Positions 5,069 through 39,669 of a stretch of 64,000 nucleotides of DNA are shown here, piece after piece. The stretch spans positions 372,001-436,000 of the forward strand of contig JAGYIE010000002.1 of the NCBI GenBank assembly GCA_018402765.1. The letters are read 5' to 3'. The position numbers and the translations under genes are program-made. The notes below the pieces were generated by a model. It worked only from the letters and a program-made list of their open reading frames with translations, had not been told where the DNA came from and searched no databases. The DNA is from Vicingaceae bacterium. GTDB lineage: Bacteria > Bacteroidota > Bacteroidia > Flavobacteriales_E > Vicingaceae. Numbering within the stretch: the first letter of the stretch is position 1; each line of letters starts with the position of its first letter.

Positions 5069-5071
5069 CGC

Positions 5072-17000: not shown

Positions 17001-20000
17001 CCGCCGTTACAGCTTACAGATGTATTTACTGAACTCGCTGTTAATGCTGTTGGCTCAGTTATGGTTACACTTGATGTACTCGTACAAGCGTTTTCATCAG
17101 TTACAGTTACTGTATATGTTCCTGCAGCTAATCCTGTGATAGTTGCTGTCGTTGCGATGGTTGTTGAACTTGAAGAACTAGACCAATCATATGAAAGTCC
17201 ATCTCTTTCAATTGCCAAATAAGTCAATCCTGTCCAATTCGCTGTAACAACAGGGAATTCAAAGAATATAGTTCCATCTGGTCTTGCTATCGCAGTGCCA
17301 ACAAACTCAGCTGAATTTATAGTGGAAGATTTAAATGTAGTGGTTGCAATTGCACCGTTTACAGTTAATGTATTATTCACATTAAACGAAGTACTTGCAT
17401 TATTATAAGAAAATAAAGCATACTTATATCTTTCTCCTGCCTGAAGACCAATTACGGTAGCAGATGCAGGTACGGAACTACTAGAATTGGTATGAAAGCC
17501 TCTAGAGTAAGCTCTCAGAGCAGTCCATCCTGTAAGGTTAACAACATAACCATTATTTATAGTTTCTGTAAAAACAGTTGATGCGCTAAAATTACTATCA
17601 GACCCTTTATAAAAATTAGAAGTAAGGGAACTAATTAAGGATAGATCTGAATTATTTAATTTACCATTTACTATAGCTGTTGCTGATCCATCAGATAAAC
17701 CACTGCAGCTTACATTTGCGTTTACAACAGTTGATACCAAAAGAGGTGAAGAAATAGTGACAACTACACTGTCGGTAGCAGTACATCCATTGTTATCTGT
17801 TACTGTTACCGTATAAGTTCCTGAAGCATTAATTGATGTTGTTTGAGTTGCTGCGCTATTACTCCATGAATAACTTGCCCAACCTGCTCCTGCATCCAAT
17901 AAAACCGAACTAGCTCCACATGAACTAATCGTATCTGATGGAAAGTTAAACGCTAGACTGCTAACAACAACTGAAACAGTATCAGAATTCACGGAACACG
18001 TTACACCTCCAGGTTTAGTAACTATACTTCCCTCGGCGTAAACATAAAAATCTGTTGATGCCAATAAACTACCTGTGTTAAATACCAATCCAGAACCTGT
18101 TCCTGAAATTGGACCTGCAACAGTATTTCCATTGACTGCATTTTTTAATGTGTATGTAACTCCATTCTCTGAAGAAGCTGTTCTGACTGTTGTGGAAGAA
18201 CCTAAACAAACAGTAGGTTTTGTAACAGTTAAATTTTGAACAAGCGTTCTATTGATCGTTAATTCTAAAACGACTACTGTATCGCAACCACTTACACTTG
18301 CTAAGGTATCGTAATATGACCCTGATGATGTATAAGTTAATCCATCTGTCCAAGTGTAACTGTTGCAAGCAATTACGGTATCTCTTAGCCTTGGGGCAAT
18401 GTTAATCGTTAAATCTAATGTAATTAACGAGTCACAACCAGCTTGGTTTGTTAAGGTGTAAGTAGCTGTATTATTATTTGTTATATAGGTATTATTATCT
18501 ATCCACGTATAACTATCACAGCTAACTACTGTCTGCACACTAGAATTGTTTTGGTTGATTTCTATAGTATCCTTTGCAACTGATGCAGCCCCACAAGAAT
18601 TTGAACTTAAATCATATGAAATAACATATACACCAAATGTTGATGAGCTTAAATCAATTTCTCCTGTGCTTGCATTAATAGAAAGACCTGAGGTAGAAGA
18701 GAATGTTCCTCCTGTAGCTCCTGTTATAACCGGAGTGGGATCTAATTCTGTAGCACAATAACTAGATGATGAATAACTTATGGTAGCAAACGTAGATGGG
18801 GAAATCGTAATTGATGCAGGTTGTGAGCATAAATCAAACTTTTCATAGACGCGAACATGTCCCGAATTACTTCCTGCCCCGTCGTTTAAAGGTGCACCTG
18901 ATGCAACAATGTCACCAGGACCATTCATTGTAACAGCCCATCCTAGTCGATCGTTAGCAGCTTCACCATCTAGATCAATACCTAATTGATACCATGTGCC
19001 ACCTATATTTTCATAAACTCTAACACTTCCAGAATTACTTCCACCTCCATCATTCAGAGGAGACCCCACTACTACTCTATCCCCTAAATCATTAATAGCG
19101 ACACCACTTCCATCTCCTTCACCTGATCGATCGATAGCTGCTTCTCCTAGAATGTCTTGACCTACTTGAGTCCAAATACTTCCGCTGTAGCTGAAAACTC
19201 TTGTTAATCCTTGCTGACCAAAATCGTTAGGTGCACTTGCCACAACCTTATCACCTGCAGCATTCATATCTACCGACCAGCCAAAATGAGCATTGAATGT
19301 TCTCCCATTTATGTCATTACCTACTTGATTCCAAGTCAATCCATCGTATTCAAAAACACGTGCTTGACCTGAACCAGTGCCAAATCCATTGCTGTATCTA
19401 GCACCTGCTATTATTCTATCTCCTAGATCGCTCATAGATACGGAGAATCCGAATTCATCCGCAGCTACTTCACCATCGATATTCCCACCCAATTGAACCC
19501 ATGATCCATTTGTCAGCTCATAAATGCGAACTTGGCCTGAGTTACTGCCATTAACATCGTTATAAATTGCTCCTGCAACTATGCGATTTCCAGCTGCGTT
19601 GATATCTACAGACCAACCAAAACGGTCGTCACTTGATTGACCATCAATATCAGCTCCCAATTGTGACCATACGCCGTTATCGTATGAGAAAACACGAACT
19701 TGACCTGAATTAACTCCTCCAGCGTCACTAACTTGTGCACCAACAACTAGTCGATCTCCAGCTGCATTCAACGCTACATCCCATCCGAAATTATCATCTG
19801 CAAATTCGCCAGCAATCGTATTACCATAGTTTACCCATGTAGTATCGTTCCACTTATAAACAGTAACTGAACCTGAATTAAGACCGTTAGGATCATCATA
19901 TCTAGAACCAACTGCCATTATATCTCCTGCCTTATTTACATCGATTGAGTTTCCTGAATGATCATCTATAGCTGCACCATCAATATCTATTCCGAATTGA

Positions 20001-23000
20001 TTAAAGTTAGAAGGTGGTGTATAGGTAACATCATAACTTCCAGGAGTTGATGCCGATAGATCAATTGTTCCTGTTAAAGGATCTATTACTAATCCTGTAG
20101 ATGAAGCAAAAAGTCCTCCTGATACACCCGTAATTATTGCGGTAGGATTAGTATCATCACTACAGAATGTACTCGCTAAATAATTAAAATCAGCTGTAGT
20201 TGCCTCTATTTTTACATTTTGAACCATAACTCCTGTACAACTTCCTCCTGTTGTTCCAGGTGTGGTATACGTTACTGCATACACTCCAGGTGTGGATGCG
20301 TCTAAATCGATTACTCCAGTTGATGAATTAATTACGAGACCTGACGTTGAACCAAATACCCCACCTGAAATACCTATTATTGAAGGCGTTGGGTCATTCC
20401 CATCACTACAATAATTAATTGAACTATAACTAAATGTTGGGTCCTCATCTTGTTGAAGAATTATTGCCATTGGCAGTGGACAAATTACTGGTGCTTCATA
20501 TACCCGAACATGACCTGCATTCGCCGCTCCTCCAACATTGTTCCATGCGCCTGAAGCCATTCTATCACCAACTCCATTCATAGCCACTGAGTACCCTAAT
20601 CGGTTGTTTGCTGCCTCTCCATCTACATCAAATCCCAGTTGATTCCAAGAATTGCTTTCTAATCCGTATATTCTAACATGACCTGAATTACTTCCGTTAC
20701 CATCGTTGAGATGCGCTCCAATTGCAATTCTATCCCCCAAATCATTCATAGAAACTGCACTTCCTGCACCTTCCCCTGATCGGTCATCGCTCCCTTCACC
20801 TATAATTTCTTGGCCTTCTTGGCGCCATTTACCTGTGCTAAAACTATAAACAGAAGTATACCCAGCCCGTCCGTAATCATTAGGTGCGCTTACCACTATC
20901 TTATCGCCTGCAGCATTCATATCTACAGACCAACCAAAGTAACTATTTGCGGTTCTTCCATTGATATCTGCTCCTACTTGACTCCAAGTAGCTCCTGTGT
21001 ATTCATACACCCGCACATGGCCAGAATTATTACCAAATCCATCGTTGTATCTTCCTCCTGCTACTATTTTATCTCCTATTTGGTTAATAGATACAGAGCA
21101 GCCAAACTCATCCCCTGCAAATTCCCCATCTAGTGCTGCTCCTAATTGTGTCCAGATACCGTTACTTAATTCATAAATTCGAACTTGTCCTGAATTGCTT
21201 CCATTGGCATCATTGTATATCGCACCTACCACTATTCGGTCTCCTTTGGCATTCATGTCTACTGACCAACCAAAACGATCATCTGCTGCTTGTCCGTTAA
21301 GATCTGCTCCTAACTGAACCCATACGCCACTGTCATAAGCATATACACGAACTTGACCTGAGTTAACCCCACCAGCGTCACTAACTTGTGCACCAACTAC
21401 CAAGCGGTCTCCTGCTGCATTTAGCGCGACATCCCATCCGAAATTATCGTCTGCAAATTCTCCTGCAATAGGATTACCGTACTGAACCCAAGCTGTACCA
21501 TTCCATTTATATACCGTTACTTCTCCTGATTCTAAGCCATTTGGGTCATCTAATCGAGCGCCAACGGCCAAAATATCTCCAGCTTTATTTACTGCAACTG
21601 AGAATCCAAATTGATCTCCTGAACTTATCCCATCGATATCTGCTCCCAACTGATTAAAATTATACGGTGGGGTATAGGTTACATCGTAATTGCCGGCGGT
21701 TGATGCTGAAAGGTTGATTGTCCCTGTAATTGGATCTATCACTAGTCCTGTAGTTGAACTAAATACCCCATCAACCACTCCAGTAATGGCAGCTTTTGGA
21801 TTAGTATCGTTTACACAAAAAGTAGTCGCTCCATACGTAAAGTCGGTTGTGTTGGCTTCTACTCGAATGGTCTGTGACATAAATCCTGCACAACCTCCCA
21901 CTGTTGTTCCAGGTGTGGTATACGTTACTGCATATACTCCAGGTGTGGATGCGTCTAAATCGATTGCCCCTGTAGATGAATTAATTGATAACCCCGAAGT
22001 AGAGCTAAATGTGCCTCCCAACAGTCCTGTGATGACAGGCGTTGGATCGGCTTCTACGCTGCAGTAACTTGATGAACCGTAACTAAATGTTGGGTCCTCA
22101 TCTTGTTGAAGAATTATTGCCATTGGCAGTGGACAAATTACTGGTGCTTCATATACCCGAACATGACCTGCATTCGCCGCTCCTCCAACATTGTTCCATG
22201 CGCCTGAAGCCATTCTATCACCAACTCCATTCATAGCCACTGAGTACCCTAATCGGTTGTTTGCTGCCTCTCCATCTACATCAAATCCCAGTTGATTCCA
22301 AGAATTGCTTTCTAATCCGTATATTCTAACATGACCTGAATTACTTCCGTTACCATCGTTGAGATGCGCTCCAATTGCAATTCTATCCCCCAAATCATTC
22401 ATAGAAACTGCACTTCCTGCACCTTCCCCTGATCGGTCATCGCTCCCTTCACCTATAATTTCTTGGCCTTCTTGGCGCCATTTACCTGTGCTAAAACTAT
22501 AAACAGAAGTATACCCAGCCCGTCCGTAATCATTAGGTGCGCTTACCACTATCTTATCGCCTGCAGCATTCATATCTACAGACCAACCAAAGTAACTATT
22601 TGCGGTTCTTCCATTGATATCTGCTCCTACTTGACTCCAAGTAGCTCCTGTGTATTCATACACCCGCACATGGCCAGAATTATTACCAAATCCATCGTTG
22701 TATCTTCCTCCTGCTACTATTTTATCTCCTATTTGGTTAATAGATACAGAGCAGCCAAACTCATCCCCTGCAAATTCCCCATCTAGTGCTGCTCCTAATT
22801 GTGTCCAGATACCGTTACTTAATTCGTAAATTCGAACTTGTCCTGAATTGCTTCCATTGGCATCATTGAATATCGCACCTACCACTATTCGGTCTCCTTT
22901 GGCATTCATGTCTACTGACCAACCAAAATGATCATCTGCTGCTTGTCCATTAAGATCTGCACCTAACTGAACCCATACGCCACTGTCATAAGCATATACA

Positions 23001-26000
23001 CGAACTTGACCTGAGTTATTGCCATTTGCATCATTATAAACAGCTCCAACAATCAACCGGTCTCCAGATGCATTTAATGCTACATCAAAGCCAAAAAGAT
23101 CATCTGCTGATTCTCCGGCTATCGAATTACCATATTGCACCCAAGCTGTTCCATTCCATTTATATACTGTTACCTCTCCCGAATTACTTCCATTTGGATC
23201 ATCATAACGAGCGCCAACGGCTAAAATATCTCCAGCTTTATTTACTGCAACTGAGAATCCAAATTGATCTCCTGAACTTATCCCATCGATATCTGCTCCC
23301 AACTGATTAAAATTATACGGTGGGGTATAGGTTACATCGTAATTGCCGGCGGTTGATGCTGAAAGGTTGATTGTGCCTGTAATTGGATCTATCACTAGTC
23401 CTGTAGTTGAACTAAATACCCCATCAACCACTCCAGTAATGGTAGCTTTTGGATTAGTATCGTTTACACAAAAAGTAGTCGCTCCATACGTAAAGTCGGT
23501 TGTGTTGGCTTCTACTCGAATGGTCTGCGACATAAATCCTGCACAACCTCCCACTGTTGTTCCAGGTGTGGTATACGTTACTGCATATACTCCAGGTGTG
23601 GATGCGTCTAAATCGATTGCCCCTGTAGATGAATTAATTGATAACCCCGAAGTAGAGCTAAATGTGCCTCCCAACAGTCCTGTGATGACAGGCGTTGGAT
23701 CGGCTTCTACGCTGCAGTAACTTGATGAACCGTAACTAAATGTTGGGTCCTCATCTTGTTGAAGAATTATTGCCATTGGCAGTGGACAAATTACTGGTGT
23801 TTCATATACCCGAACATGACCTGCATTCGCCGCCCCTCCAACATTGTTCAATGCGCCTGAAGCCATTCTATCACCTACTCCATTCATTGCAACTGAAAAC
23901 CCTAATTGATTGTTTGCCGCCTCTCCATCTAAATCAAATCCCAATTGGTTCCATGAGTTGCTTTCTAATCCGTATATTCTTACATGACCTGAATTACTTC
24001 CGTTACCATCGTTTAAATACGCTCCAATTGCAATTCTATCCCCCAAATCATTCATAGAAACTGCACTTCCTTCTCCATGACCTGATCGATCACCGCCTGC
24101 TTCTCCAATAATTTCTTGTCCCTCTTGGCGCCATTTACCTGTACTAAAACTATAAACAGAAGTAGCTCCATTTTGACCGTAATCATAAGGTGCGCTCGCC
24201 ACTATCTTATCGCCTGCTGCATTCATATCTACAGACCAACCAAAGTAACTATTTGCGGTTCTTCCATTGATATCTGCTCCTACTTGACTCCAGGTAGCTC
24301 CTGTGTATTCATACACCCGCACATGACCCGAATTGCTGCCAAATCCATCGTTATTCCTTGCTCCAGCTACTATTTTATTTCCTAAAGCATTTATGGCTAC
24401 CGAATATCCAAAAAGATCATCAGCGTATTCTCCATCTAGTGCTGCTCCTAGTTGTGTCCAGATACCGTTACTTAATTCGTAAATTCGAACTTGTCCTGAA
24501 TTGCTTCCATTGGCATCATTGAATATCGCACCTACCACTATTCGGTCTCCTTTGGCATTCATGTCTACTGACCAACCAAAATGATCATCTGCTGCTTGTC
24601 CATTAAGATCTGCACCTAACTGAACCCATACGCCACTGTCATAAGCATATACACGAACTTGACCTGAGTTATTGCCATTTGCATCATTATAAACAGCTCC
24701 AACAATCAACCGGTCTCCAGATGCATTTAATGCTACATCAAAGCCAAAAAGATCATCTGCTGATTCTCCGGCTATCGAATTACCATATTGCACCCAAGCT
24801 GTTCCATTCCATTTATATACTGTTACCTCTCCCGAATTACTTCCATTTGGATCATCATAACGAGCGCCAACGGCTAAAATATCTCCAGCTTTATTTACTG
24901 CAACTGAGAATCCAAATTGATCTCCTGAACTTATCCCATCGATATCTGCTCCCAACTGATTAAAATTATACGGTGGGGTATAGGTTACATCGTAATTGCC
25001 GGCGGTTGATGCTGAAAGGTTGATTGTGCCTGTAATTGGATCTATCACTAGTCCTGTAGTTGAACTAAATACCCCATCAACCACTCCAGTAATGGTAGCT
25101 TTTGGATTAGTATCGTTTACACAAAAAGTAGTCGCTCCATACGTAAAGTCGGTTGTGTTGGCTTCTACTCGAATGGTCTGCGACATAAATCCTGCACAAC
25201 CTCCCACTGTTGTTCCAGGTGTGGTATACGTTACTGCATATACTCCAGGTGTGGATGCGTCTAAATCGATTGCCCCTGTAGATGAATTAATTGATAACCC
25301 CGAAGTAGAGCTAAATGTGCCTCCCAACAGTCCTGTGATGACAGGCGTTGGATCGGCTTCTACGCTGCAGTAACTTGATGAACCGTAACTAAATGTTGGG
25401 TCCTCATCTTGTTGAAGAATTATTGCCATTGGCAGTGGACAAATTACTGGTGTTTCATATACCCGAACATGACCTGCATTCGCCGCCCCTCCAACATTGT
25501 TCAATGCGCCTGAAGCCATTCTATCACCTACTCCATTCATTGCAACTGAAAACCCTAATTGATTGTTTGCCGCCTCTCCATCTAAATCAAATCCCAATTG
25601 GTTCCATGAGTTGCTTTCTAATCCGTATATTCTTACATGACCTGAATTACTTCCGTTACCATCGTTTAAATACGCTCCAATTGCAATTCTATCCCCCAAA
25701 TCATTCATAGAAACTGCACTTCCTTCTCCATGACCTGATCGATCACCGCCTGCTTCTCCAATAATTTCTTGTCCCTCTTGGCGCCATTTACCTGTACTAA
25801 AACTATAAACAGAAGTAGCTCCATTTTGACCGTAATCATAAGGTGCGCTCGCCACTATCTTATCGCCTGCTGCATTCATATCTACAGACCAACCAAAGTA
25901 ACTATTTGCGGTTCTTCCATTGATATCTGCTCCTACTTGACTCCAGGTAGCTCCTGTGTATTCATACACCCGCACATGACCCGAATTGCTGCCAAATCCA

Positions 26001-29000: not shown

Positions 29001-32000
29001 GTAGAGCTAAATGTGCCTCCTAAAGTACCTGTAATGGTTGGTGTTGGGTCTGCTTCAATACTGCAATAACTCGATGAATTGTAACTAAATGTTGGATCCT
29101 CTTGTTGTTGAAGTATTATTGGTAAGGGTAAAGGACAAATTACAGGAGTTTCATAAACTCGAACGTGGCCTGAATTGCTGCCGCCACCATCATTCCCTAT
29201 AGCACCTGAAGCCACTCGGTCGCCTATTGCATTAATTGCAACAGAAATTCCTGAATAATCATTAGCCGCTTCACCGTCTAAGTCAAAACCCAATTGTTCC
29301 CATAGACTTCCTTTAATTTCATAAACCCGAGTATGCCCAGAGTTAGAGCCATTCCCATCATCGAAATATGCTCCAACTACTATTCGATCGCCTGCATCGT
29401 TCATCGCTACAGCATAGCCAAAACGATCATCATTACTCTCTCCATTGATATCATTTCCGATTTTGCGCCAAGCTCCTCCGCTGAATTCGTATACTCTCAC
29501 TTGACCAGCATCGTTAGGAACTGCATCATTTAAATCTGCGCCAACGACAATACGATTACCTGAAGCATTCATGCCAACTTCTATTCCAAATCGATCACCT
29601 GCAAAAGCGCCATCGATATCGGTTCCCAATTGTGTCCAAGTCCCACTTATTAATCCATAAACACTAACTTGTCCTGATGAAGGGCCATTGGCATTACTTG
29701 CAAAGGCTCCTATAACTACCTTATCGCCTAAATCATTTATCGCTACTGAATTTCCAAATTGATCGTTTGCAAATGCGCCATCTAATGAAGCGCCTAATTG
29801 AACCCACAATCCATTGACTAACTCATAAATTGTTGCCTGCCCTGAATTACTGCCATTTACATCATTCAATCGCGCTCCAACAACAATTCGACCTCCTACT
29901 GCATTTATATCGACTGAGTAACCAAATTGATCATTTGCAAATGCTCCATTTATAGCTTGTCCAAGCTGCTGCCAAGTCCCATTATCATAAGAGTAAACTC
30001 GCACTTGACCGGAGTTATTCCCATTTGCGTCATTATGAATAGCTCCAACAATTAACCGGTCTCCGGATGCATTTAATGCGACATCCCAACCAAAACGATC
30101 ATCTGCTGATTCTCCTGCTATCGAATTACCATATTGAACCCAAGCTGTTCCATCCCATTGGTATACAAAAACTTCTCCTGAGTTTGCTCCGTTTGGGTCA
30201 TCATAGCGAGCGCCTGCGGCCATGATATCTCCAACTTTGTTAAACGCTATGGCGTTTCCAAACTCATCGCCAGCACTTTTCCCATCCAAATCTGCACCTA
30301 GCTGATTAAAGTTAGACGGTGGAGTGTAACTGACATTGTAATTCCCAGGTGTGGAGGCCAATAAATTAATCGTTCCTGTTAATGAATCGATTACTAAGCC
30401 TGTGCTAGACGTAAACTTTCCATTTAATACACCTGTTACGGTTGCTTTTGGATTGGTATCGTTAATGCAAAAAGTGGTTGCCGTATAGTTAAAGTCGGTT
30501 GTAGTAGCTGAAATGATTAGTTGTTGTGTCAATACGCCGGCACAACTGCCTATTGTACTTCCTGAAGTGGTGTACGTTACATCGTAAACGCCAGGGGTAG
30601 ACACATCTAAATCGATGGCTCCTGTGGATGAATTAATTACAAGGCCTGATGTAGAGCTAAATGTGCCTCCTAAAGTACCTGTAATGGTTGGTGTTGGGTC
30701 TGCTTCAATACTGCAATAACTCGATGAATTGTAGGTAAATGTTGGATCCTCTTGTTGTTGAAGTATTATTGGTAAGGGTAAAGGACAAATTACAGGGGTT
30801 TCATAAACCCGAACGTGGCCTGAATTGCTGCCGCCACCATCATTCCCTACAGCACCTGAAGCCACTCGGTCGCCTGTTCCATTTATTGCAACAGAAATTC
30901 CTGAATAATCAATAGCCGCTTCCCCGTCTAAGTCAAAGCCCAATTGTTCCCATAGACTTCCTTTAATTTCATATACCCGAGTATGCCCAGAGTTAGAGCC
31001 ATTCCCATCATCGAAATATGCTCCAACTACTATTCGATCGCCTGCATCGTTCATCGCTACAGCATAGCCAAAACGATCATCATTACTCTCTCCATTGATA
31101 TCATTTCCGATTTTGCGCCAAGCTCCTCCGCTGAATTCGTATACTCTCACTTGACCAGCATCGTTAGGAACTGCATCATTTAAATCTGCGCCAACGACAA
31201 TACGATTACCTGAAGCATTCATGCCAACTTCTATTCCAAATCGATCACCTGCAAAAGCGCCATCGATATCGGTTCCCAATTGTGTCCAAGTCCCACTTAT
31301 TAATCCATAAACACTAACTTGTCCTGATGAAGGGCCATTGGCATTACTTGCAAAGGCTCCTATAACTACCTTATCGCCTAAATCATTTATCGCTACTGAA
31401 TTTCCAAATTGATCGTTTGCAAATGCGCCATCTAATGAAGCGCCTAATTGAACCCACAATCCATTGACTAACTCATAAATTGTTGCCTGCCCTGAATTAC
31501 TGCCATTTACATCATTCAATCGCGCTCCAACAACAATTCGACCTCCTACTGCATTTATATCGACTGAGTAACCAAATTGATCATTTGCAAATGCTCCATT
31601 TATAGCTTGTCCAAGCTGCTGCCAAGTCCCATTATCATAAGAGTAAACTCGCACTTGACCGGAGTTATTCCCATTTGCGTCATTATGAATAGCTCCAACA
31701 ATTAACCGGTCTCCGGATGCATTTAATGCGACATCCCAACCAAAACGATCATCTGCTGATTCTCCTGCTATCGAATTACCATATTGAACCCAAGCTGTTC
31801 CATCCCATTGGTATACAAAAACTTCTCCTGAGTTTGCTCCGTTTGGGTCATCATAGCGAGCGCCTGCGGCCATGATATCTCCAACTTTGTTAAACGCTAT
31901 GGCGTTTCCAAACTCATCGCCAGCACTTTTCCCATCCAAATCTGCACCTAGCTGATTAAAGTTAGACGGTGGAGTGTAACTGACATTGTAATTCCCAGGT

Positions 32001-35000
32001 GTGGAGGCCAATAAATTAATCGTTCCTGTTAATGAATCGATTACTAAGCCTGTGCTAGACGTAAACTTTCCATTTAATACACCTGTTACGGTTGCTTTTG
32101 GATTGGTATCGTTAATGCAAAAAGTGGTTGCCGTATAGTTAAAGTCGGTTGTAGTAGCTGAAATGATTAGTTGTTGTGTCAATACGCCGGCACAACTGCC
32201 TATTGTACTTCCTGAAGTGGTGTACGTTACATCGTAAACGCCAGGGGTAGACACATCTAAATCGATGGCTCCTGTGGATGAATTAATTACAAGGCCTGAT
32301 GTAGAGCTAAATGTGCCTCCTAAAGTACCTGTAATGGTTGGTGTTGGGTCTGCTTCAATACTGCAATAACTCGATGAATTGTAGGTAAATGTTGGATCCT
32401 CTTGTTGTTGAAGTATTATTGGTAAGGGTAAAGGACAAATTACAGGGGTTTCATAAACCCGAACGTGGCCTGAATTGCTGCCGCCACCATCATTCCCTAC
32501 AGCACCTGAAGCCACTCGGTCGCCTGTTCCATTTATTGCAACAGAAATTCCTGAATAATCAATAGCCGCTTCCCCGTCTAAGTCAAAGCCCAATTGTTCC
32601 CATAGACTTCCTTTAATTTCATATACCCGAGTATGCCCAGAGTTAGAGCCATTCCCATCATCGAAATATGCTCCAACTACTATTCGATCGCCTGCATCGT
32701 TCATCGCTACAGCATAGCCAAAACGATCATCATTACTCTCTCCATTGATATCATTTCCGATTTTGCGCCAAGCTCCTCCGCTGAATTCGTATACTCTCAC
32801 TTGACCAGCATCGTTAGGAACTGCATCATTTAAATCTGCGCCAACGACAATACGATTACCTGAAGCATTCATGCCAACTTCTATTCCAAATCGATCACCT
32901 GCAAAAGCGCCATCGATATCGGTTCCCAATTGTGTCCAAGTCCCACTTATTAATCCATAAACACTAACTTGTCCTGATGAAGGGCCATTGGCATTACTTG
33001 CAAAGGCTCCTATAACTACCTTATCGCCTAAATCATTTATCGCTACTGAATTTCCAAATTGATCGTTTGCAAATGCGCCATCTAATGAAGCGCCTAATTG
33101 AACCCACAATCCATTGACTAACTCATAAATTGTTGCCTGCCCTGAATTACTGCCATTTACATCATTCAATCGCGCTCCAACAACAATTCGACCTCCTACT
33201 GCATTTATATCGACTGAGTAACCAAATTGATCATTTGCAAATGCTCCATTTATAGCTTGTCCAAGCTGCTGCCAAGTCCCATTATCATAAGAGTAAACTC
33301 GCACTTGACCGGAGTTATTCCCATTTGCGTCATTATGAATAGCTCCAACAATTAACCGGTCTCCGGATGCATTTAATGCGACATCCCAACCAAAACGATC
33401 ATCTGCTGATTCTCCTGCTATCGAATTACCATATTGAACCCAAGCTGTTCCATCCCATTGGTATACAAAAACTTCTCCTGAGTTTGCTCCGTTTGGGTCA
33501 TCATAGCGAGCGCCTGCGGCCATGATATCTCCAACTTTGTTAAACGCTATGGCGTTTCCAAACTCATCGCCAGCACTTTTCCCATCCAAATCTGCACCTA
33601 GCTGATTAAAGTTAGACGGTGGAGTGTAACTGACATTGTAATTCCCAGGTGTGGAGGCCAATAAATTAATCGTTCCTGTTAATGAATCGATTACTAAGCC
33701 TGTGCTAGACGTAAACTTTCCATTTAATACACCTGTTACGGTTGCTTTTGGATTGGTATCGTTAATGCAAAAAGTGGTTGCCGTATAGTTAAAGTCGGTT
33801 GTAGTAGCTGAAATGATTAGTTGTTGTGTCAATACGCCGGCACAACTGCCTATTGTACTTCCTGAAGTGGTGTACGTTACATCGTAAACGCCAGGGGTAG
33901 ACACATCTAAATCGATGGCTCCTGTGGATGAATTAATTACAAGGCCTGATGTAGAGCTAAATGTGCCTCCTAAAGTACCTGTAATGGTTGGTGTTGGGTC
34001 TGCTTCAATACTGCAATAACTCGATGAATTGTAGGTAAATGTTGGGTTTTCATCTTGTTTAAGTTCTATAGCCAATGGAAGAGGACAACTTTCTATAGTT
34101 TGATAAACCCGAACGTGGCCTGAATTACTGCCGCCGCCATCGTTTAGTTGAGCTCCGGATGTAACTATATCTCCTGCGCCGTTAATTGCTACAGACCATC
34201 CTGACCAATCGTCTTGTGCTTCTCCGTCTAAGTCAAAACCTAGTATATTCCAATAGCCTTTTTCTAATCCATAAACTCTTGCATGGCCTGAATTACTACC
34301 TCCACCATCATTTTGCCAAGCACCGATTACAACTTTATCTCCTATATCATTAATAGAAACAGAATTTCCATCAGCCCCACCTGAGTAATCTTGATTTGCT
34401 TCACCCAAAATATCTTGCCCTACTTGTGTCCAAGTATTTCCTGTATTGCGGTAAATTCTTGCTAACCCTTTTTGATTGTCTTCATTAGGTGCAGTTGCAA
34501 CAACCATATCCCCAGCCGCATTCATATCTACAGACCAACCAAAATATGTATTTGCTGTTTTCCCATTAATATCAGCACCGACTTGATTCCAACTTCCTAA
34601 ATTGTACGCATAAACTCTAACATGACCCGCATCATTAGCAAGCCCATCGTTGAATCTACCTCCTGCAACCACTCGATCGCCTAAATCATTCATTGCAACA
34701 GAAAAACCAAATTCATCTCCTGGCATCTCTCCATCGATATCTGAACCCAACTGAGCCCATAAACCATTAATCAACCCATAAATTCTTACATGACCTGAGT
34801 TACTCCCGTTACCATCATTGAATCTAGCTCCTGCTACTATCCGATCTCCTTGTGCATTGATATCAACTGACCAACCAAATCGATCGTCATTTGCCTCTCC
34901 ATCTATATCTTGTCCAAGTTGATTCCAAACCCCATTATTATAACTATATACCCGAACGTGACCTGAATTACTGCCACCATCATCATTTAATTGAGCACCT

Positions 35001-35821
35001 ACAACCAAGCGATCACCTTTAGCATTTAGTGCAACGTCTGTGCCAAACCGGTCGTCTCCAGACTCAGCAACAATAGCATTACCATATTGAATCCATGCCG
35101 TTCCATTCCATCTGTAAACATTTACTTGTCCAGAATTGCTTCCATTTGGATCGTCTAAAGGTGCTCCCACCGCCATGATATCTCCTGCCTTATTTAAATC
35201 GACAGAATAACCAAATCTGTCATCTGCGCCTGTTCCATCAATATCTAACCCTAGTTGAAAATAATTAGAGGGTGGAGTGTAGGTTACATTGTAACTTCCA
35301 GGTGAAGAAGCTGATATATTAACAGTTCCAGTTAACGAATCAACTACCAAACCTAAAGAAGACGAAAATTTTCCTCCTTGAACACCAGTTATTACCGCTT
35401 TTGGATTTGTGTCATTGATACAAAAAGTAGATGCTCCGTACGAAAAATCAGGGACATTAGTGGGACTGATGGTCACCTTATTTGAATAAGAAATTCCATT
35501 TAAAATATAAGAAACTGTATATATTCCTGGAGCAGAAGCATCTAAATCAATCACCCCAGTAGATGGATTTAAGGACAAACCTGTAGTGGACGAAAAAATA
35601 CCCCCTGAGGCTGTTATGGTAGGAGTTGGGTCGTTACTGTATGTGCAGTATGCATTTTGCGGATAATTAAAATAAACAAAACTACTCTGTGAAAAAGCAA
35701 CATAGTTATTTGTAAAAAAAATTAAAGCAAAAAGTGCTTGTTTTAATAATAAAACGCAGGTCTTATTTTTAGGTAATTGGATTTCAAGAGTATTCAATTC
35801 CATAGAAAAATAGATGTGCAT
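5072..35821 (-). CDS. Giant T9SS type B surface protein (10,249 residues) with ten FG-GAP propeller modules and SprB-type repeats
   Basis: A single uninterrupted frame of 30,750 bases, roughly a 1-MDa protein. N to C: signal peptide (about 1-45); ten ~550-residue modules (about 46-5662), each with two Ig-like head domains and a predicted seven-bladed FG-GAP propeller; further Ig-like units with C-x-x-Y-T-W motifs; a nested unknown domain and two nested LamG domains (about 6050-7050); about 24 SprB-type 75-residue repeats (about 7075-8875); ten 80-residue repeats (about 8880-9680); three HYR-like domains; PKD-like domains; and a type B gliding-motility-type C-terminal domain (about 10160-10249; AFTPNADGQNDTWEI, SVGSYYY). 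It should be exported by T9SS and displayed as an adhesin or gliding filament. A second Met at 35803 could be the start. It heads an operon with PorP/SprF and PD40/OmpA. Specific ligand unknown; an SprB-like role is inference. Confidence 0.9.
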   Translation of the reverse strand: MHIYFSMELNTLEIQLPKNKTCVLLLKQALFALIFFTNNYVAFSQSSFVYFNYPQNAYCTYSNDPTPTITASGGIFSSTTGLSLNPSTGVIDLDASAPGIYTVSYILNGISYSNKVTISPTNVPDFSYGASTFCINDTNPKAVITGVQGGKFSSSLGLVVDSLTGTVNISASSPGSYNVTYTPPSNYFQLGLDIDGTGADDRFGYSVDLNKAGDIMAVGAPLDDPNGSNSGQVNVYRWNGTAWIQYGNAIVAESGDDRFGTDVALNAKGDRLVVGAQLNDDGGSNSGHVRVYSYNNGVWNQLGQDIDGEANDDRFGWSVDINAQGDRIVAGARFNDGNGSNSGHVRIYGLINGLWAQLGSDIDGEMPGDEFGFSVAMNDLGDRVVAGGRFNDGLANDAGHVRVYAYNLGSWNQVGADINGKTANTYFGWSVDMNAAGDMVVATAPNEDNQKGLARIYRNTGNTWTQVGQDILGEANQDYSGGADGNSVSINDIGDKVVIGAWQNDGGGSNSGHARVYGLEKGYWNILGFDLDGEAQDDWSGWSVAINGAGDIVTSGAQLNDGGGSNSGHVRVYQTIESCPLPLAIELKQDENPTFTYNSSSYCSIEADPTPTITGTLGGTFSSTSGLVINSSTGAIDLDVSTPGVYDVTYTTSGSTIGSCAGVLTQQLIISATTTDFNYTATTFCINDTNPKATVTGVLNGKFTSSTGLVIDSLTGTINLLASTPGNYNVSYTPPSNFNQLGADLDGKSAGDEFGNAIAFNKVGDIMAAGARYDDPNGANSGEVFVYQWDGTAWVQYGNSIAGESADDRFGWDVALNASGDRLIVGAIHNDANGNNSGQVRVYSYDNGTWQQLGQAINGAFANDQFGYSVDINAVGGRIVVGARLNDVNGSNSGQATIYELVNGLWVQLGASLDGAFANDQFGNSVAINDLGDKVVIGAFASNANGPSSGQVSVYGLISGTWTQLGTDIDGAFAGDRFGIEVGMNASGNRIVVGADLNDAVPNDAGQVRVYEFSGGAWRKIGNDINGESNDDRFGYAVAMNDAGDRIVVGAYFDDGNGSNSGHTRVYEIKGSLWEQLGFDLDGEAAIDYSGISVAINGTGDRVASGAVGNDGGGSNSGHVRVYETPVICPLPLPIILQQQEDPTFTYNSSSYCSIEADPTPTITGTLGGTFSSTSGLVINSSTGAIDLDVSTPGVYDVTYTTSGSTIGSCAGVLTQQLIISATTTDFNYTATTFCINDTNPKATVTGVLNGKFTSSTGLVIDSLTGTINLLASTPGNYNVSYTPPSNFNQLGADLDGKSAGDEFGNAIAFNKVGDIMAAGARYDDPNGANSGEVFVYQWDGTAWVQYGNSIAGESADDRFGWDVALNASGDRLIVGAIHNDANGNNSGQVRVYSYDNGTWQQLGQAINGAFANDQFGYSVDINAVGGRIVVGARLNDVNGSNSGQATIYELVNGLWVQLGASLDGAFANDQFGNSVAINDLGDKVVIGAFASNANGPSSGQVSVYGLISGTWTQLGTDIDGAFAGDRFGIEVGMNASGNRIVVGADLNDAVPNDAGQVRVYEFSGGAWRKIGNDINGESNDDRFGYAVAMNDAGDRIVVGAYFDDGNGSNSGHTRVYEIKGSLWEQLGFDLDGEAAIDYSGISVAINGTGDRVASGAVGNDGGGSNSGHVRVYETPVICPLPLPIILQQQEDPTFTYNSSSYCSIEADPTPTITGTLGGTFSSTSGLVINSSTGAIDLDVSTPGVYDVTYTTSGSTIGSCAGVLTQQLIISATTTDFNYTATTFCINDTNPKATVTGVLNGKFTSSTGLVIDSLTGTINLLASTPGNYNVSYTPPSNFNQLGADLDGKSAGDEFGNAIAFNKVGDIMAAGARYDDPNGANSGEVFVYQWDGTAWVQYGNSIAGESADDRFGWDVALNASGDRLIVGAIHNDANGNNSGQVRVYSYDNGTWQQLGQAINGAFANDQFGYSVDINAVGGRIVVGARLNDVNGSNSGQATIYELVNGLWVQLGASLDGAFANDQFGNSVAINDLGDKVVIGAFASNANGPSSGQVSVYGLISGTWTQLGTDIDGAFAGDRFGIEVGMNASGNRIVVGADLNDAVPNDAGQVRVYEFSGGAWRKIGNDINGESNDDRFGYAVAMNDAGDRIVVGAYFDDGNGSNSGHTRVYEIKGSLWEQLGFDLDGEAANDYSGISVAINAIGDRVASGAIGNDGGGSNSGHVRVYETPVICPLPLPIILQQQEDPTFSYNSSSYCSIEADPTPTITGTLGGTFSSTSGLVINSSTGAIDLDASTPGIYDVTYTTSGTAIGSCRGNSSQIIRVLSTSIDFNYSTTAFCSNDVDPIPTITGVAGGIFSSSTGLIIDPSTGTINLLASTPGNYNISYTPPSNFNQLGADLDGKSAGDEFGNAIAFNKVGDIMAVGARYDDPNGASSGEVFVYQWDGTAWVQYGNSIAGESADDQFGWDVALNAAGNRLIVGARSKDDNGGNSGQVRVYSYDNGTWHQLGQAINGAFANDQFGYSVDINAGGDRIVVGALLNDVNGSNSGQATMYELINGLWVQLGATLDGAFAGDQFGNSVAINDLGDKVVIGAFASNANGPSSGQVSVYGLISGTWTQLGTDIDGAFAGDQFGIEVGMNASGNRIVVGAHLSDAVPNNSGQVRVYEFSGGVWGKLGNDINGDNEDRLGYAVAMNDLGDRIVVGAWLDDGNGRNSGQTSIYEINGSSWFKLGAHLDGEAQDDYLGFSVAINAIGDRVASGAIGNDGGGSNSGHVRVYEKFDQCSQSSPVSITLSPIASISYASSNYCSAGVDPTPVITGSTGGTFSSTVGLSIDANSGEIDLSNSADGTYVVSYNLSSNTCGSASVSQATISIGQSSSNSQTVSNCGTYTWPENGKLYFESGVYFETLTNTLGCDSTITLNLTITNEDPSFTYSTTNFCSVEADPTPVITGLLGGTFSSTSGLSINSSTGAIDLDASTPGVYAVTYTTPGTTVGGCAGFMSQTIRVEANTTDFTYGATTFCINEVNPKATVTGVVDGVFSSTTGLVIDPITGTINLSASTAGNYDVTYTPPYNFNQLGADIDGISSGDQFGFSVAVNKAGDILAVGARLDDPNGLESGEVTVYKWNGTAWVQYGNPIAGEFADDNFGWDVALNAAGDRLVVGAQVSDAGGVNSGQVRVYAYDSGVWVQLGADLNGQAADDRFGWSVDMNAKGDRIVVGAIYNDANGSNSGQVRIYELSNGIWTQLGAALDGEYADDLFGYSVAINALGNKIVAGARNNDGFGSNSGHVRVYEYTGATWSQVGADINGRTANSYFGWSVDMNAAGDKIVASAPYDYGQNGATSVYSFSTGKWRQEGQEIIGEAGGDRSGHGEGSAVSMNDLGDRIAIGAYLNDGNGSNSGHVRIYGLESNSWNQLGFDLDGEAANNQLGFSVAMNGVGDRMASGALNNVGGAANAGHVRVYETPVICPLPMAIILQQDEDPTFSYGSSSYCSVEADPTPVITGLLGGTFSSTSGLSINSSTGAIDLDASTPGVYAVTYTTPGTTVGGCAGFMSQTIRVEANTTDFTYGATTFCVNDTNPKATITGVVDGVFSSTTGLVIDPITGTINLSASTAGNYDVTYTPPYNFNQLGADIDGISSGDQFGFSVAVNKAGDILAVGARYDDPNGSNSGEVTVYKWNGTAWVQYGNSIAGESADDLFGFDVALNASGDRLIVGAVYNDANGNNSGQVRVYAYDSGVWVQLGADLNGQAADDHFGWSVDMNAKGDRIVVGAIFNDANGSNSGQVRIYELSNGIWTQLGAALDGEYADDLFGYSVAINALGNKIVAGARNNDGFGSNSGHVRVYEYTGATWSQVGADINGRTANSYFGWSVDMNAAGDKIVASAPYDYGQNGATSVYSFSTGKWRQEGQEIIGEAGGDRSGHGEGSAVSMNDLGDRIAIGAYLNDGNGSNSGHVRIYGLESNSWNQLGFDLDGEAANNQLGFSVAMNGVGDRMASGALNNVGGAANAGHVRVYETPVICPLPMAIILQQDEDPTFSYGSSSYCSVEADPTPVITGLLGGTFSSTSGLSINSSTGAIDLDASTPGVYAVTYTTPGTTVGGCAGFMSQTIRVEANTTDFTYGATTFCVNDTNPKATITGVVDGVFSSTTGLVIDPITGTINLSASTAGNYDVTYTPPYNFNQLGADIDGISSGDQFGFSVAVNKAGDILAVGARYDDPNGSNSGEVTVYKWNGTAWVQYGNSIAGESADDLFGFDVALNASGDRLIVGAVYNDANGNNSGQVRVYAYDSGVWVQLGADLNGQAADDHFGWSVDMNAKGDRIVVGAIFNDANGSNSGQVRIYELSNGIWTQLGAALDGEFAGDEFGCSVSINQIGDKIVAGGRYNDGFGNNSGHVRVYEYTGATWSQVGADINGRTANSYFGWSVDMNAAGDKIVVSAPNDYGRAGYTSVYSFSTGKWRQEGQEIIGEGSDDRSGEGAGSAVSMNDLGDRIAIGAHLNDGNGSNSGHVRIYGLESNSWNQLGFDVDGEAANNRLGYSVAMNGVGDRMASGAWNNVGGAANAGHVRVYEAPVICPLPMAIILQQDEDPTFSYGSSSYCSVEADPTPVITGLLGGTFSSTSGLSINSSTGAIDLDASTPGVYAVTYTTPGTTVGGCAGFMSQTIRVEANTTDFTYGATTFCVNDTNPKAAITGVVDGVFSSTTGLVIDPITGTINLSASTAGNYDVTYTPPYNFNQLGADIDGISSGDQFGFSVAVNKAGDILAVGARLDDPNGLESGEVTVYKWNGTAWVQYGNPIAGEFADDNFGWDVALNAAGDRLVVGAQVSDAGGVNSGQVRVYAYDSGVWVQLGADLNGQAADDRFGWSVDMNAKGDRIVVGAIYNDANGSNSGQVRIYELSNGIWTQLGAALDGEFAGDEFGCSVSINQIGDKIVAGGRYNDGFGNNSGHVRVYEYTGATWSQVGADINGRTANSYFGWSVDMNAAGDKIVVSAPNDYGRAGYTSVYSFSTGKWRQEGQEIIGEGSDDRSGEGAGSAVSMNDLGDRIAIGAHLNDGNGSNSGHVRIYGLESNSWNQLGFDVDGEAANNRLGYSVAMNGVGDRMASGAWNNVGGAANAGHVRVYEAPVICPLPMAIILQQDEDPTFSYSSINYCSDGNDPTPSIIGISGGVFGSTSGLVINSSTGVIDLDASTPGVYAVTYTTPGTTGGSCTGVMVQNVKIEATTADFNYLASTFCSDDTNPTAIITGVSGGLFASSTGLVIDPLTGTIDLSASTPGSYDVTYTPPSNFNQFGIDIDGAAIDDHSGNSIDVNKAGDIMAVGSRYDDPNGLNSGSVTVYKWNDTTWVNYGNTIAGEFADDNFGWDVALNAAGDRLVVGAQVSDAGGVNSGQVRVFSYDNGVWSQLGADIDGQSSDDRFGWSVDINAAGNRIVAGAIYNDVNGSNSGQVRIYELTNGSWVQLGGNIDGEVAADEFGFSVSMSDLGDRIIAGARYSNGFGTGSGQARVFEYDGLTWNQVGNDINGRTFNAHFGWSVDMNAAGDKVVASAPNDFGQQGLTRVFSYSGSIWTQVGQDILGEAAIDRSGEGDGSGVAINDLGDRVVVGSPLNDGGGSNSGSVRVYENIGGTWYQLGIDLDGEAANDRLGWAVTMNGPGDIVASGAPLNDGAGSNSGHVRVYEKFDLCSQPASITISPSTFATISYSSSSYCATELDPTPVITGATGGTFSSTSGLSINASTGEIDLSSSTFGVYVISYDLSSNSCGAASVAKDTIEINQNNSSVQTVVSCDSYTWIDNNTYITNNNTATYTLTNQAGCDSLITLDLTINIAPRLRDTVIACNSYTWTDGLTYTSSGSYYDTLASVSGCDTVVVLELTINRTLVQNLTVTKPTVCLGSSTTVRTASSENGVTYTLKNAVNGNTVAGPISGTGSGLVFNTGSLLASTDFYVYAEGSIVTKPGGVTCSVNSDTVSVVVSSLAFNFPSDTISSCGASSVLLDAGAGWASYSWSNSAATQTTSINASGTYTVTVTDNNGCTATDSVVVTISSPLLVSTVVNANVSCSGLSDGSATAIVNGKLNNSDLSLISSLTSNFYKGSDSNFSASTVFTETINNGYVVNLTGWTALRAYSRGFHTNSSSSVPASATVIGLQAGERYKYALFSYNNASTSFNVNNTLTVNGAIATTTFKSSTINSAEFVGTAIARPDGTIFFEFPVVTANWTGLTYLAIERDGLSYDWSSSSSSTTIATTATITGLAAGTYTVTVTDENACTSTSSVTITEPTALTASSVNTSVSCNGGADGTATVTATGGTSPYTFVWSNSAITASVTGVTAGTYTVTVSDANSCTTTSSVTITEPAPISFSFAQDTIFSCGVDSVIVDAGAGWASYAWSTSTSSATFATAQTTSIKTSGVYSVTVTDANGCSENDSVAVSVINGQIVQNDTTICNGQTIQLSTEQVGVINNHSISFDGNGDYIDLGNSSAIRPTSEISISAWVYFNSVNSGIRFMSDWHQSSSTDRWLFYFPSQGTLGLEVSNLNEVSTATVTGSVVVGKWYHLVGTYNGSQVELFIDGVSQGTSPLTGTMNPGSAPTVKIGGQVSAGNYHFGKIDEVRIWDRARTASEISTSYSKKVPTSSNGIVGYWNFEEGSGNVTKNVIDNQTATLQGNAVFNSNPSFSSTGSLSTYTYSWSNGDTTSTITVSPTLTTTYTVTVSDGIGSCTDSVTLTVISPSFNLAQDTILSCGTSSVTLDAGAGWSSYVWSNAATTQTTIVSAIGTYTVTVTEANGCTATDDVVVTSIINQALTAASTQFCAGSGTTITTNSSELSVNYALYEATNNTLVDGPLAGTGASLAFQTGNLNTSTDFYLKSSIGDLTPGIGEAISFNGTNQYATVPININTSSNPTLTITAWVKRTATASGPHHIISNDNGNWDRAIVIQSDSKYHIFAGRDINTNITSTLNQWEHIAVSYSSSEIKFFLNGQLVFSTSGQGVINGHNAARIGGRPEKSSMFTGLIDEVTFWNRSLTESEVNGYRNMCDLSSIYGLLGHYRMEEGSGSTLLDETSNLKNGTLFNAPSRVIGLGCSNTSCAIQSASNIAIVVNPNPIVSIAQIDISCNGLSDGSVTATGAGGTAPYTFLWSNAATTASITGLTAGTYTATVTDANGCTTTSSATVTEPTALSATSSNTNVSCNGGADGTATVTATGGTTAYTYLWSNAATTASITGLTAGTYTATVTDANGCTTTSNATVTEPTALSATSSNTNISCNGGADGTATVTATGGTTAYTYLWSNAATTASITGLTAGTYTATVTDANGCTTTSSATVTEPTALSATSSNTNVSCNGGADGSATVTATGGTTAYTYLWSNAATTASITGLTAGTYTATVTDANGCTTTSNATVTEPTALSATSSNTNISCNGGADGTATVTATGGTTAYTYLWSNAATTASITGLTAGTYTATVTDANGCTTTSSATVTEPTALSATSSNTNVSCNGGADGTATVTATDGTTAYTYLWSNAATTASITGLTAGTYTATVTDANGCTTTSSATVTEPTALSATSSNTNVSCNGGADGSATVTATGGTTAYTYLWSNAATTASITGLTAGTYTATVTDANGCTTTSSATVTEPTALSATSSNTNVSCNGGNDGSATVTATGGTAVYTYLWSNAATTASITGLTAGTYTATVTDANGCTTTSNATVTEPTALSATSSNTNVSCNGGADGTATVTATGGTTAYTYLWSNAATTASITGLTAGTYTATVTDANGCTTTSSATVTEPTALSATSSNTNVSCNGGADGTATVTATGGTTAYTYLWSNAATTASITGLTAGTYTATVTDANGCTTTSSATVTEPTALSATSSNTNVSCNGGADGTATVTATGGTTAYTYLWSNAATTASVTGLTAGTYTATVTDANGCTTTSSATVTEPTALSATSSNTNVSCNGGADGTATVTATGGTTAYTYLWSNAATTASVTGLTAGTYTATVTDANGCTTTSSATVTEPTALSATSSNTNVSCNGGADGSATVTATGGTTAYTYLWSNAATTASITGLTAGTYTATVTDANNCTTTASTTITEPAVLAASALNTPVSCNGGNDGSATATATGGTAPYTFLWSNASTTPTANGLSAGTYTVTVTDVNNCTITASTTIIEPTALTASSVVNANVSCNGGSDGSAIASGSGGTAPYTFLWSNASTTATANGLAAGTYTATVTDANGCTTTSSATVTEPTALSATSSNTNVSCNGGNDGSATVTATGGTAVYTYLWSNAATTASITGLTAGTYTATVTDANGCTTTSSATVTEPTALSATSSNTNVSCNGGADGSATVTATGGTTAYTYLWSNSATTANITGLTAGTYTATVTDANNCITTASTTITEPAVLAASALNTPVSCNGGNDGSATATATGGTAPYTFLWSNASTTPTANGLSAGTYTVTVTDVNNCTITASTTIIEPTALTASSVVNANVSCNGGSDGSAIASGSGGTAPYTFLWSNASTTATANGLAAGTYTATVTDANGCTTTSSATVTEPTALSATSSNTNVSCNGGNDGSATVTATGGTAVYTYLWSNAATTASITGLTAGTYTATVTDANGCTTTSSATVTEPTALSATSSNTNVSCNGGADGSATVTATGGTTAYTYLWSNSATTANITGLTAGTYTATVTDANNCITTASTTITEPAVLVSSIQVNQNVSIFGTNDGSVTASGSGGTFPYTYAWNTAATTATINNLFSGVYTVTITDGNNCTSSKQVTVFEPGSIRASMRLDSNVTCNGGVNGGAGVSVTGGVKPYTILWSNSLTDSTITGLSAGTYTVTVTDANGGTAVNDTTVTEPAQLSAAVSIVNNASCAGVNNGAAQVSVTGGTLPYSIIWSNSATSTAINSLLAGTYSVTITDANNCIAIDTANVLNNDTVAPVLLTQPLTIYLDVNGLVSITANDVDNGTVDNCQLAGIAIDSSNFDCSDVGVNTINFKAVDASGNRDSVNVSVTVVDSIKPIISTQPLTVYLDANGQATITASDLDNGTSDNCQVASIAIDSSIFDCSEVGPNTVVFTAIDVNGNTSITTETVTVIDSIKPIIATQPLTVYLDANGQATITATDLDNGTSDNCQVASITIDSSNFDCSEVGSNSVVFTAIDVNGNTSNTTETVTVVDSIKPIIATQPLTVYLDANGQATITATDLDNGTSDNCQIASIAIDSSNFDCSEVGPNTVVFTAIDVNGNTSISTETVTVIDSIKPIISTQPLTVYLDANGQATITATDLDNGTSDNCQVASIAIDSSNFDCSEVGPNTVVFTAIDVNGNTSITTETITVVDSIKPIIATQPLTVYLDANGQATITATDLDNGTSDNCQVASIAIDSSNFDCSEVGPNTVVFTAIDVNGNTSITTETVTVVDSIKPIIATQPLTVYLNANGQATITATDLDNGTSDNCQVASITIDSSNFDCSEVGPNMVVFTAIDVNGNTSITTETVTVVDSIKPIIATQPLTVYLDANGQATITATDLDNGTSDNCQVASIAIDSSNFDCSEVGPNTVVFTAIDVNGNTSITTETVTVVDSIKPIIATQPLTVYLDANGQATITATDLDNGTTDNCQAASITIDSSNFDCSEVGVNTVNFKATDASGNRDSVNVLVTVIDSIKPIIVTQPITVYLGTNGLATITANDLDNGTADNCQIASIGIDSTTFDVTELGPNNVRFTAIDVNNNTDSVIEVVTVLDTIAPMVANCPTNITVSTALNSCDAAVTWIAPTASDNGQLDSLIGSHVIGSTFALGTTTITYIAYDQSMNTDTCRFTITVIDSVAPIIANIPSNIAVSNDTGQCGAVVSWTLPTAADNCQLDSLVSSHNLGTVFTVGTTTVTYIAYDAAMNTDTISFTITVNDTELPTISCIADTTVCDSVFTYALPTTADNCGIASVVRTSGLASGSTFPLGGTVVTHVVTDIHGNVDSCSFTVTRDALPTAATAGSDFNVCLDTVTLSGNSAVIGSGIWTTTTTGVVITDPSNPFTTAVLQRGANQFIWTISNGVCASSSDTVFITFDSEPTIAAAGTDQTLCDERSTTMQANIPQTGTGVWSFIGGTGVPSNVNDARTFVSGLGDGLNTLVWTISNGVCGSSTDTVTLIGADVPVLTTLSDTTIFKEEGVRLFVDSDIPVIQYSWFPMFSLDNSSIQTPFARPDEDTRYSVRVTTSDGCFADGYIEVTVLEGLIIPGAFTPNADGQNDTWEIKNLEELDSYNVMVYDGFGSEVFRSSSYTPWDGKFGGNELSVGSYYYLIKYELLGKSEVVTGVISILR
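5075..5345 (-). other. Type B T9SS C-terminal sorting domain of giant protein 1
   Basis: The last ~90 residues contain the hallmarks of the gliding-motility-associated (CHU_C, type B) domain: IPGAFTPNADGQNDTWEI, a Y-D-G-x-G-S-E-V-F segment, W-D-G-K and SVGSYYYLI. Known members direct export by T9SS and need a PorP/SprF partner, which is the next gene. The equivalent domain in giant 2 (39673-39945) is homologous but clearly diverged, although DNA about 225 bases upstream is almost identical in the two genes. Confidence 0.9.
5571..7141 (-). repeat. 1.57-kb tract shared almost base for base with giant 2 (40169-41739)
   Basis: From 5571 to 7141 the sequence matches 40169-41739 at a constant offset of 34,598 bases. 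One difference was noticed (G at 7038 versus A at 41636). It encodes part of the last 80-residue repeats, three HYR-like domains and two PKD-like domains. Identity stops abruptly at both ends, and both flanks as well as the downstream PorP and OmpA genes are diverged. Recent gene conversion, or a segmental copy, is the simplest reading. Confidence 0.9.
6785..9185 (-). repeat. Ten 80-residue (240-bp) Ig/HYR-like repeats in giant 1
   Basis: A 240-bp period is obvious: the same phrase recurs every four 60-base lines from about 7011 to 8931. Each unit reads roughly P-I-I-x-T-Q-P-L-T-V-Y-L-D-x-N-G, then D-L-D-N-G-T-x-D-N-C, F-D-C-S-E-V-G and V-x-D-S-I-K. Two cysteines per unit suggest one internal disulfide. 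The central copies differ by only a few bases; the first and last copies are more divergent. Confidence 0.88.
9200..14600 (-). repeat. Array of about 24 SprB-type 75-residue (225-bp) repeats in giant 1
   Basis: Units carry the SprB-repeat pattern: S-C-N-G-G-x-D-G-x-A, Y-x-Y-L-W-S-N, T-G-L-x-A-G-T-Y-T-x-T-V-T-D-A-N-G-C, then V-T-E-P-T. SprB repeats occur in the Flavobacterium johnsoniae gliding adhesin SprB. Many units differ by only a few synonymous or conservative changes, so the array has been homogenised. Each unit has two conserved cysteines (S-C-N-G and N-G-C). Confidence 0.9.
9871..11676 (-). repeat. 903-bp tandem duplication inside the SprB array
   Basis: The block starting at 9871 is repeated almost perfectly at 10774 (offset 903 bp, 301 residues). 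It holds four successive SprB units in the same order, including the two odd units with A-L-N-T-P-V-S-C and V-V-N-A-N-V-S-C. It is a higher-order duplication laid over the 225-bp period, as expected from unequal recombination. Confidence 0.85.
14670..15275 (-). other. LamG/concanavalin-like domain 2 of giant 1, nested in an Ig-like unit
   Basis: About residues 6850-7051. LamG hallmarks: ISFNGTNQYATVPI, ITAWVKR, W-E-H-I-A-V-S-Y, FFLNGQ and GLIDEVTFWNRSLTESEV. These domains usually bind carbohydrate or protein ligands. The surrounding Ig-like unit exists without an insert at about 17,975-18,240 (F-C/V-C-x-G-S, S-T-D-F-Y), so the LamG sits inside it. Confidence 0.85.
15880..16515 (-). other. LamG/concanavalin-like domain 1 of giant 1, nested in a PKD-like unit
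   Basis: About residues 6436-6648. Starts SISFDGNGDYIDLG, includes ISISAWVYF, K-W-Y-H-L-V-G-T-Y and F-I-D-G-V, and ends K-I-D-E-V-R-I-W-D-R-A-R. It lies between the two halves of a PKD/Ig-like unit: TTICNGQTIQLS before it and YTYSWSNGDTTSTITVSP after it. Confidence 0.87.
17200..17665 (-). other. About 155-residue unrecognised domain nested inside an SprB-type repeat of giant 1
   Basis: An SprB unit begins normally (N-V-S-C-S-G-L-S-D-G-S-A-T-A) and is interrupted. It resumes with YDWSSSSSS, A-G-T-Y-T-V-T-V-T and ITEPT about 155 residues later. The insert is rich in Ser, Thr and Asn, with predicted beta character. I do not recognise its family. Confidence 0.7.
20446..27062 (-). repeat. Four 1,653-bp tandem copies (modules 6-9) with mosaic halves
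   Basis: The period is 1,653 bp, with the same junction phrase near 20446, 22099, 23752 and 25405. The early blades come in two types and the later blades in two types. The four modules carry all four combinations of these types. Head-domain DNA is nearly the same in all four. Confidence 0.88.
29105..34055 (-). repeat. Three near-identical 1,650-bp tandem copies (modules 2-4)
   Basis: The sequence repeats with a strict 1,650-bp period. The lines I compared between about 30,750 and 34,040 were identical from one copy to the next. The copy at 29,105-30,755 shows scattered changes at its 3' end (last blade and adjoining linker). Module 5 (27,485-29,105) is a more diverged relative. Confidence 0.88.
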
Positions 35822-38692: not shown

Positions 38693-38696
38693 TCCC

Positions 38697-39662: not shown

Positions 39663-39669
39663 CTGTTGC

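Follow-up and report, generated by a model that had tools for sequence, protein, structure and literature searches.

The window, a stretch of 64,000 nucleotides, raises the question of what a surface protein encoded by a single open frame of about 30.7 kb is built from and what it does, and in particular whether, as a sequence-only reading had proposed, it strings ten seven-bladed propellers (about 70 blades) on one polypeptide. The frame lies at 5072–35821 on the minus strand, as do all features given below, runs from an ATG start with no internal stop, and encodes a predicted giant T9SS cargo of 10,249 aa in a marine-type Bacteroidota bacterium with a 3.1-Mb genome. Ten modules occupy residues 44–5667, the outer, N-terminal half of the protein (about 16.9 kb of DNA), and the span first noted, 18835–35690, agrees with this, covering residues 44–5663 from the first spacer domain through the end of the tenth propeller. 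Modules follow one another at 550–551 residues, except from M5 to M6, where an extra piece of about 130 residues, additional spacer material (27062–27499), raises the distance to 681.

Blades were counted with a blade-core pattern, which picked out 70 sites, clustered as ten groups with exactly seven in each, no site outside the propeller region of the protein, and a mean of 0.6 sites (maximum 3) in shuffled sequence; a blade profile, used as a second counting method, also gave 70. The earlier count of seven, made on five modules, thus extends to all ten, and the proposed string of propellers is borne out as 10 × 7 blades. The propellers were placed at 34079–35272 (M1, residues 184–581), 32426–33619 (M2, 735–1132), 30776–31969 (M3, 1285–1682), 29126–30319 (M4, 1835–2232), 27476–28669 (M5, 2385–2782), 25433–26626 (M6, 3066–3463), 23780–24973 (M7, 3617–4014), 22127–23320 (M8, 4168–4565), 20474–21667 (M9, 4719–5116) and 18821–20014 (M10, 5270–5667). 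The profile search suggested with the first reading confirmed the family: Pfam FG-GAP_2 (PF14312) matched the three module stretches scanned at E values of 6e-30 to 9e-41 (103–138 bits per stretch, cut-off 23), and had no match in other genes of the genome. Pfam matches to Kelch_3 and Rax2, also propeller families, were set aside, being far weaker than FG-GAP_2 and at or below cut-off with the sole exception of Rax2 on M10 (36.6 vs 28.8 bits). Among relatives from many phyla with complete frames, 77 of 96 blade groups contain seven blades, one contains fourteen and the rest contain fewer; these sevens are independent support for seven-fold closure.

Structure prediction, likewise suggested earlier, was carried out with AlphaFold2 for M2 plus the spacer pair before it (alignment of 23 sequences) and for M9 together with M10. 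The M2 model has propeller pLDDT block means of about 80–98 and, as read from the strand list, seven four-stranded blades, of which the last consists of three strands plus the N-terminal one; M9 and M10 also close with seven blades each, in a model whose relative domain placing is unreliable (pTM 0.46). A Foldseek search with the M2 model returned integrin alpha heads as the best PDB matches (E 1.1e-17), and one with the M9–M10 model returned integrins mixed with double-propeller proteins. Superposition of the M2 model on integrin alpha heads using VIA-align 2 gave Z 39.6 over 354 residues (rmsd 2.9 Å), overlapping model residues 145–538 with integrin chain residues 1 onward, and because it starts at integrin residue 1, the ring would close as in integrins. 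At the sequence level, a single module found no convincing match in the PDB, and only a profile built from the ten propellers did so, matching integrin alphas only (best E 8.7e-5). By these models the modules have a predicted seven-bladed propeller fold, and the fold and profile matches agree in pointing to the integrin type. The FG and GA motifs are kept in the blades and variation between modules is highest beside them, with a constant core; proline follows GA/SA/GS in few of the blades inspected (e.g. M1_b1, M10_b7), so that the FG-GAP/Cage proline in every blade that marks the strict metazoan integrin type (PMC3192720) is not found here.

An Asp/Asn-rich turn (N-D-x-N-G-S-N-S-G) had been reported in nearly every blade and proposed to bind calcium. 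Turns of the ND-x-NG-x-NSG type are indeed present in 58 of the 70 blades, but they lie between the GA motif and the SG-x-VRVY strand and make up the 2,3-loop, at the FG-GAP/Cage end of the blade, whereas integrin propellers hold calcium in a DxDxDG 1,2-loop at the opposite end of the blade (PMC3192720; PMC3123361). Where integrin alpha-6 has VDLNKDGWQD in the 1,2-loop, a profile alignment shows a short LNAAGD-type turn in the blades. The Dx[DN]xDG loop, which the strict-type calcium criterion places in blades 4/5–7 and which occurs in all seven blades of the bacterial set (PMC3192720), is absent from residues 1–5700 and from all 70 blades. Calcium binding by the Asp/Asn-rich turn, which sits at the other blade end, was accordingly dropped as unsupported by homology.

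Each propeller is preceded by a pair of beta-rich units, homologous to each other and about 82 and 64 residues long (for example 33608–34045), so that the domain pairs described as separating the propellers are present, while their description as Ig-like is weakly supported: matches to bacterial Ig-like Pfam families, including PF16403, fall below cut-off, the best PDB match is weak (E 0.06), and the pair has low confidence in the M2 model (pLDDT about 35–80). Ig-like is a reasonable, if unproven, label for these spacers.

DNA comparison of the modules showed M2 and M3 to be identical over 1,620 nt and M4 to differ from M2 at 10 sites, with a 3,071-nt exact self-match at offset 1,650 in a block of perfect 1,650-nt periodicity across M2–M4 (29325–34045). 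M6–M9 are mosaics with sharp switches; M9, for example, has spacers near-identical to those of M8, a stretch of first blades 100% identical to M6, and a remainder 100% identical to M8. Of 140 blade comparisons, 107 (20 expected by chance) gave the same-numbered blade of another module as the best match, so the unit that multiplied was the seven-blade module and not the single blade. A Vicingaceae single-cell genome, L031, has a first module with 85% identity to M1, at which its contig ends, and L030 has one with 91% identity to M10 at the edge of another contig. To the other modules in the window, the L031 module is only 54–62% identical and the L030 module 60–73%; on these values, the outer modules predate these splits and the near-identical inner ones are young. 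In the L030 locus (L030:3-3450), the M10-like propeller is followed, across a masked (N) stretch, by a frame ending in an apparent type-A T9SS tail, not type B. The inner modules appear to be recent tandem duplicates (M2 and M3) and recombinant mosaics, and propeller number probably grew as whole modules were exchanged or gained through unequal crossing-over. A more tentative extension, possible but on balance doubtful, is a recombining library of integrin-like heads, in which the first and last propellers are conserved and those between them are reshuffled in number and face residues by unequal crossing-over; attachment would then vary between strains in valency and specificity.

With M2 and M3 identical, the figure of exactly ten depends on the correctness of the assembly there, and the same identity, with the near-identity of M4 and the long exact self-match, would fit the possibility that assembly had inflated or scrambled the copy number of a true gene with fewer modules. 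This is very unlikely, since the array contains nine distinct propeller sequences, leaving at most M3 doubtful on sequence grounds, and the frame is uninterrupted over 30.7 kb with ordered ends that match related genomes.

Between the propellers and the C-terminus, Pfam searches and DNA repeats delimited two LamG/ConA-like lectin domains with a first SprB repeat (14642–18820), an SprB repeat array (9212–14641; PF13573, 24 significant stretches, 848.7 bits, period about 225 nt), and a HYR/OmpL47-like repeat stalk (period 240 nt) with the C-terminal region (5075–9211). The tandem arrays in the DNA comprise 20.5 copies of 225 nt at 9882–14500 and about nine copies of 240 nt at 6909–9105. The C-terminus carries a type-B T9SS signal (5087–5332; TIGR04131 / CHU_C, 56.4 bits vs cut-off 35 and 64.7 vs 27), and the gene is followed by a PorP/SprF-family outer-membrane protein, the predicted cognate anchor (4103–5068; 224.9 bits vs 90.55), and a PD40 and OmpA protein (2153–4072) that is PorE-like by architecture and scores 109.8 bits against the PorE model, far below its cut-off of 600. 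The order cargo-PorP-OmpA is kept in relatives. By its C-terminal domain and adjacent PorP/SprF gene the protein classifies as a predicted T9SS type-B cargo, in keeping with the surface location first proposed.

The neighbouring operon (35999–55224) is paralogous, with a 5,184-aa cargo without FG-GAP_2 blades, then PorP and OmpA genes, and offers a test case for cargo-shuttle specificity. The two giant genes have in common a 1,468-nt exact stretch in the stalk (5570–7037 and 40168–41635) that ends about 165 residues short of each C-terminus, and past its end DNA identity drops to about 52–71%; the last 100 residues of the two cargos are 57% identical and their PorP proteins 68%. The common stretch looks like gene conversion that spared a shuttle-specific signal. 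The OmpA/PD40 protein of this operon (35999–38737) contains about five near-identical 94-residue (282-nt) repeats, against about two in its L031 counterpart and no obvious ones in the 639-aa paralog.

Taken together, the protein is probably a multivalent, wall-tethered cell-surface adhesin of the SprB kind, with ligand binding and multivalency as plausible elements. PorP-like proteins bind and anchor type-B cargo at the surface in Flavobacterium and Porphyromonas, SprF binds SprB, cargo beside porE-like genes has been postulated to be wall-fixed (PMC9143113), and cognate shuttles are described for type-B cargo (PMC12618676); the tethering is inferred from the surface anchoring by PorP-like proteins and from the porE-like neighbour. 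T9SS would export the cargo, PorP would hold its C-terminus in the outer membrane, and the OmpA protein would tie PorP to peptidoglycan, so that a stalk of lectin-like, SprB and HYR-type repeats could hold a flexible string of ten propellers off the cell, with FG-GAP/Cage faces that would attach avidly to a repeated polymer or to the surface of a partner. Against the adhesin reading, propellers also serve as structural or enzymatic scaffolds, the orientation of the beads has no reliable prediction in the two-module model, the identity of M2 and M3 may be an assembly effect, and gliding machinery in the genome leaves room for mobility.

This last point bears on whether the protein is instead mobile, a gliding adhesin that, as with SprB of Flavobacterium johnsoniae, is propelled along the cell while its propellers grip the substratum. 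Its SprB repeats, type-B C-terminal domain and adjacent SprF-like gene would suit that role, and SprA and GldJ score over cut-off in the genome; it is nevertheless unlikely, since a PorE-like OmpA gene follows, where sprB and sprF of F. johnsoniae have none and such neighbours are postulated to mark fixed cargo (PMC9143113), and since 15 type-B cargos score over cut-off, any other of which may be the motor adhesin. About equally improbable is that the propellers do not bind ligands but serve chiefly as bulk, in a shield or spacer that recombines and varies in length and guards against phage, predators or host defences. Identical and near-identical copies, mosaics, the high copy number of the other repeat arrays in the protein and the lack of a known ligand are compatible with such a shield, but blade cores and the FG and GA motifs are strictly conserved against variable loop positions on either side, and in sister genera a protein of this kind retains one intact propeller. 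The tethered adhesin remains the preferred reading.

The contrast drawn at the outset with a usual single integrin-like head holds among relatives, which mostly carry one propeller, as do two SprB-repeat proteins from sister genera (L112, L113). The most found elsewhere, among complete frames in a large, non-exhaustive sample, was three (L110 and L130), and in G001, of the same genus, the giant gene is truncated and contains Ns; because the sample is non-exhaustive and arrays of this kind are where short-read assemblies break, other proteins with as many propellers may exist. A literature search combining FG-GAP with gliding, T9SS or propeller terms returned no paper on such a protein, the only relevant ones being PMC3192720, PMC9218822 and PMC3123361. 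Against the known combination of an integrin-type propeller and an SprB-type T9SS adhesin, it is the number, recency and shuffling of the modules that stand out. Ten heads on one such adhesin, with its anchor genes beside it, make a concrete case for asking what the heads bind and whether valency is selected, and the 16.9-kb array for how domain arrays expand and homogenise.

Among known systems, the LDL-receptor-related giants megalin and LRP1 are animal surface proteins with several six-bladed YWTD propellers and EGF domains; they likewise string multiple propellers on one giant surface protein, a functional analogy only, and to our knowledge are unrelated to the giant cargo by sequence. The integrin alpha head (e.g. 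7ceb, 3v4v, 1jv2) matches over the whole domain fold and weakly but specifically in sequence, whereas the cargo has no known beta partner, no calcium loops, ten copies, and the setting of a bacterial T9SS cargo. Bacterial integrin-type FG-GAP propellers have been described as one or two per protein, in tandem in some, with no known role (PMC3192720); the present ones resemble them in having seven FG-GAP blades and a ring closed by the N-terminal strand, and differ in numbering ten, in being of the FG-GAP_2 (PF14312) type, in having no DxDxDG calcium loop where that set has one in every blade, and in lacking the Cage proline from most blades (PMC3192720). In Flavobacterium johnsoniae, similar systems are SprB and the type-B CTD adhesins (PMC9143113, PMC12618676), with which the cargo has in common SprB repeats, a type-B CTD, a PorP/SprF gene directly downstream and giant size, and from whose sprB-sprF arrangement it differs in its propeller array and in the OmpA/PorE-like gene that follows.
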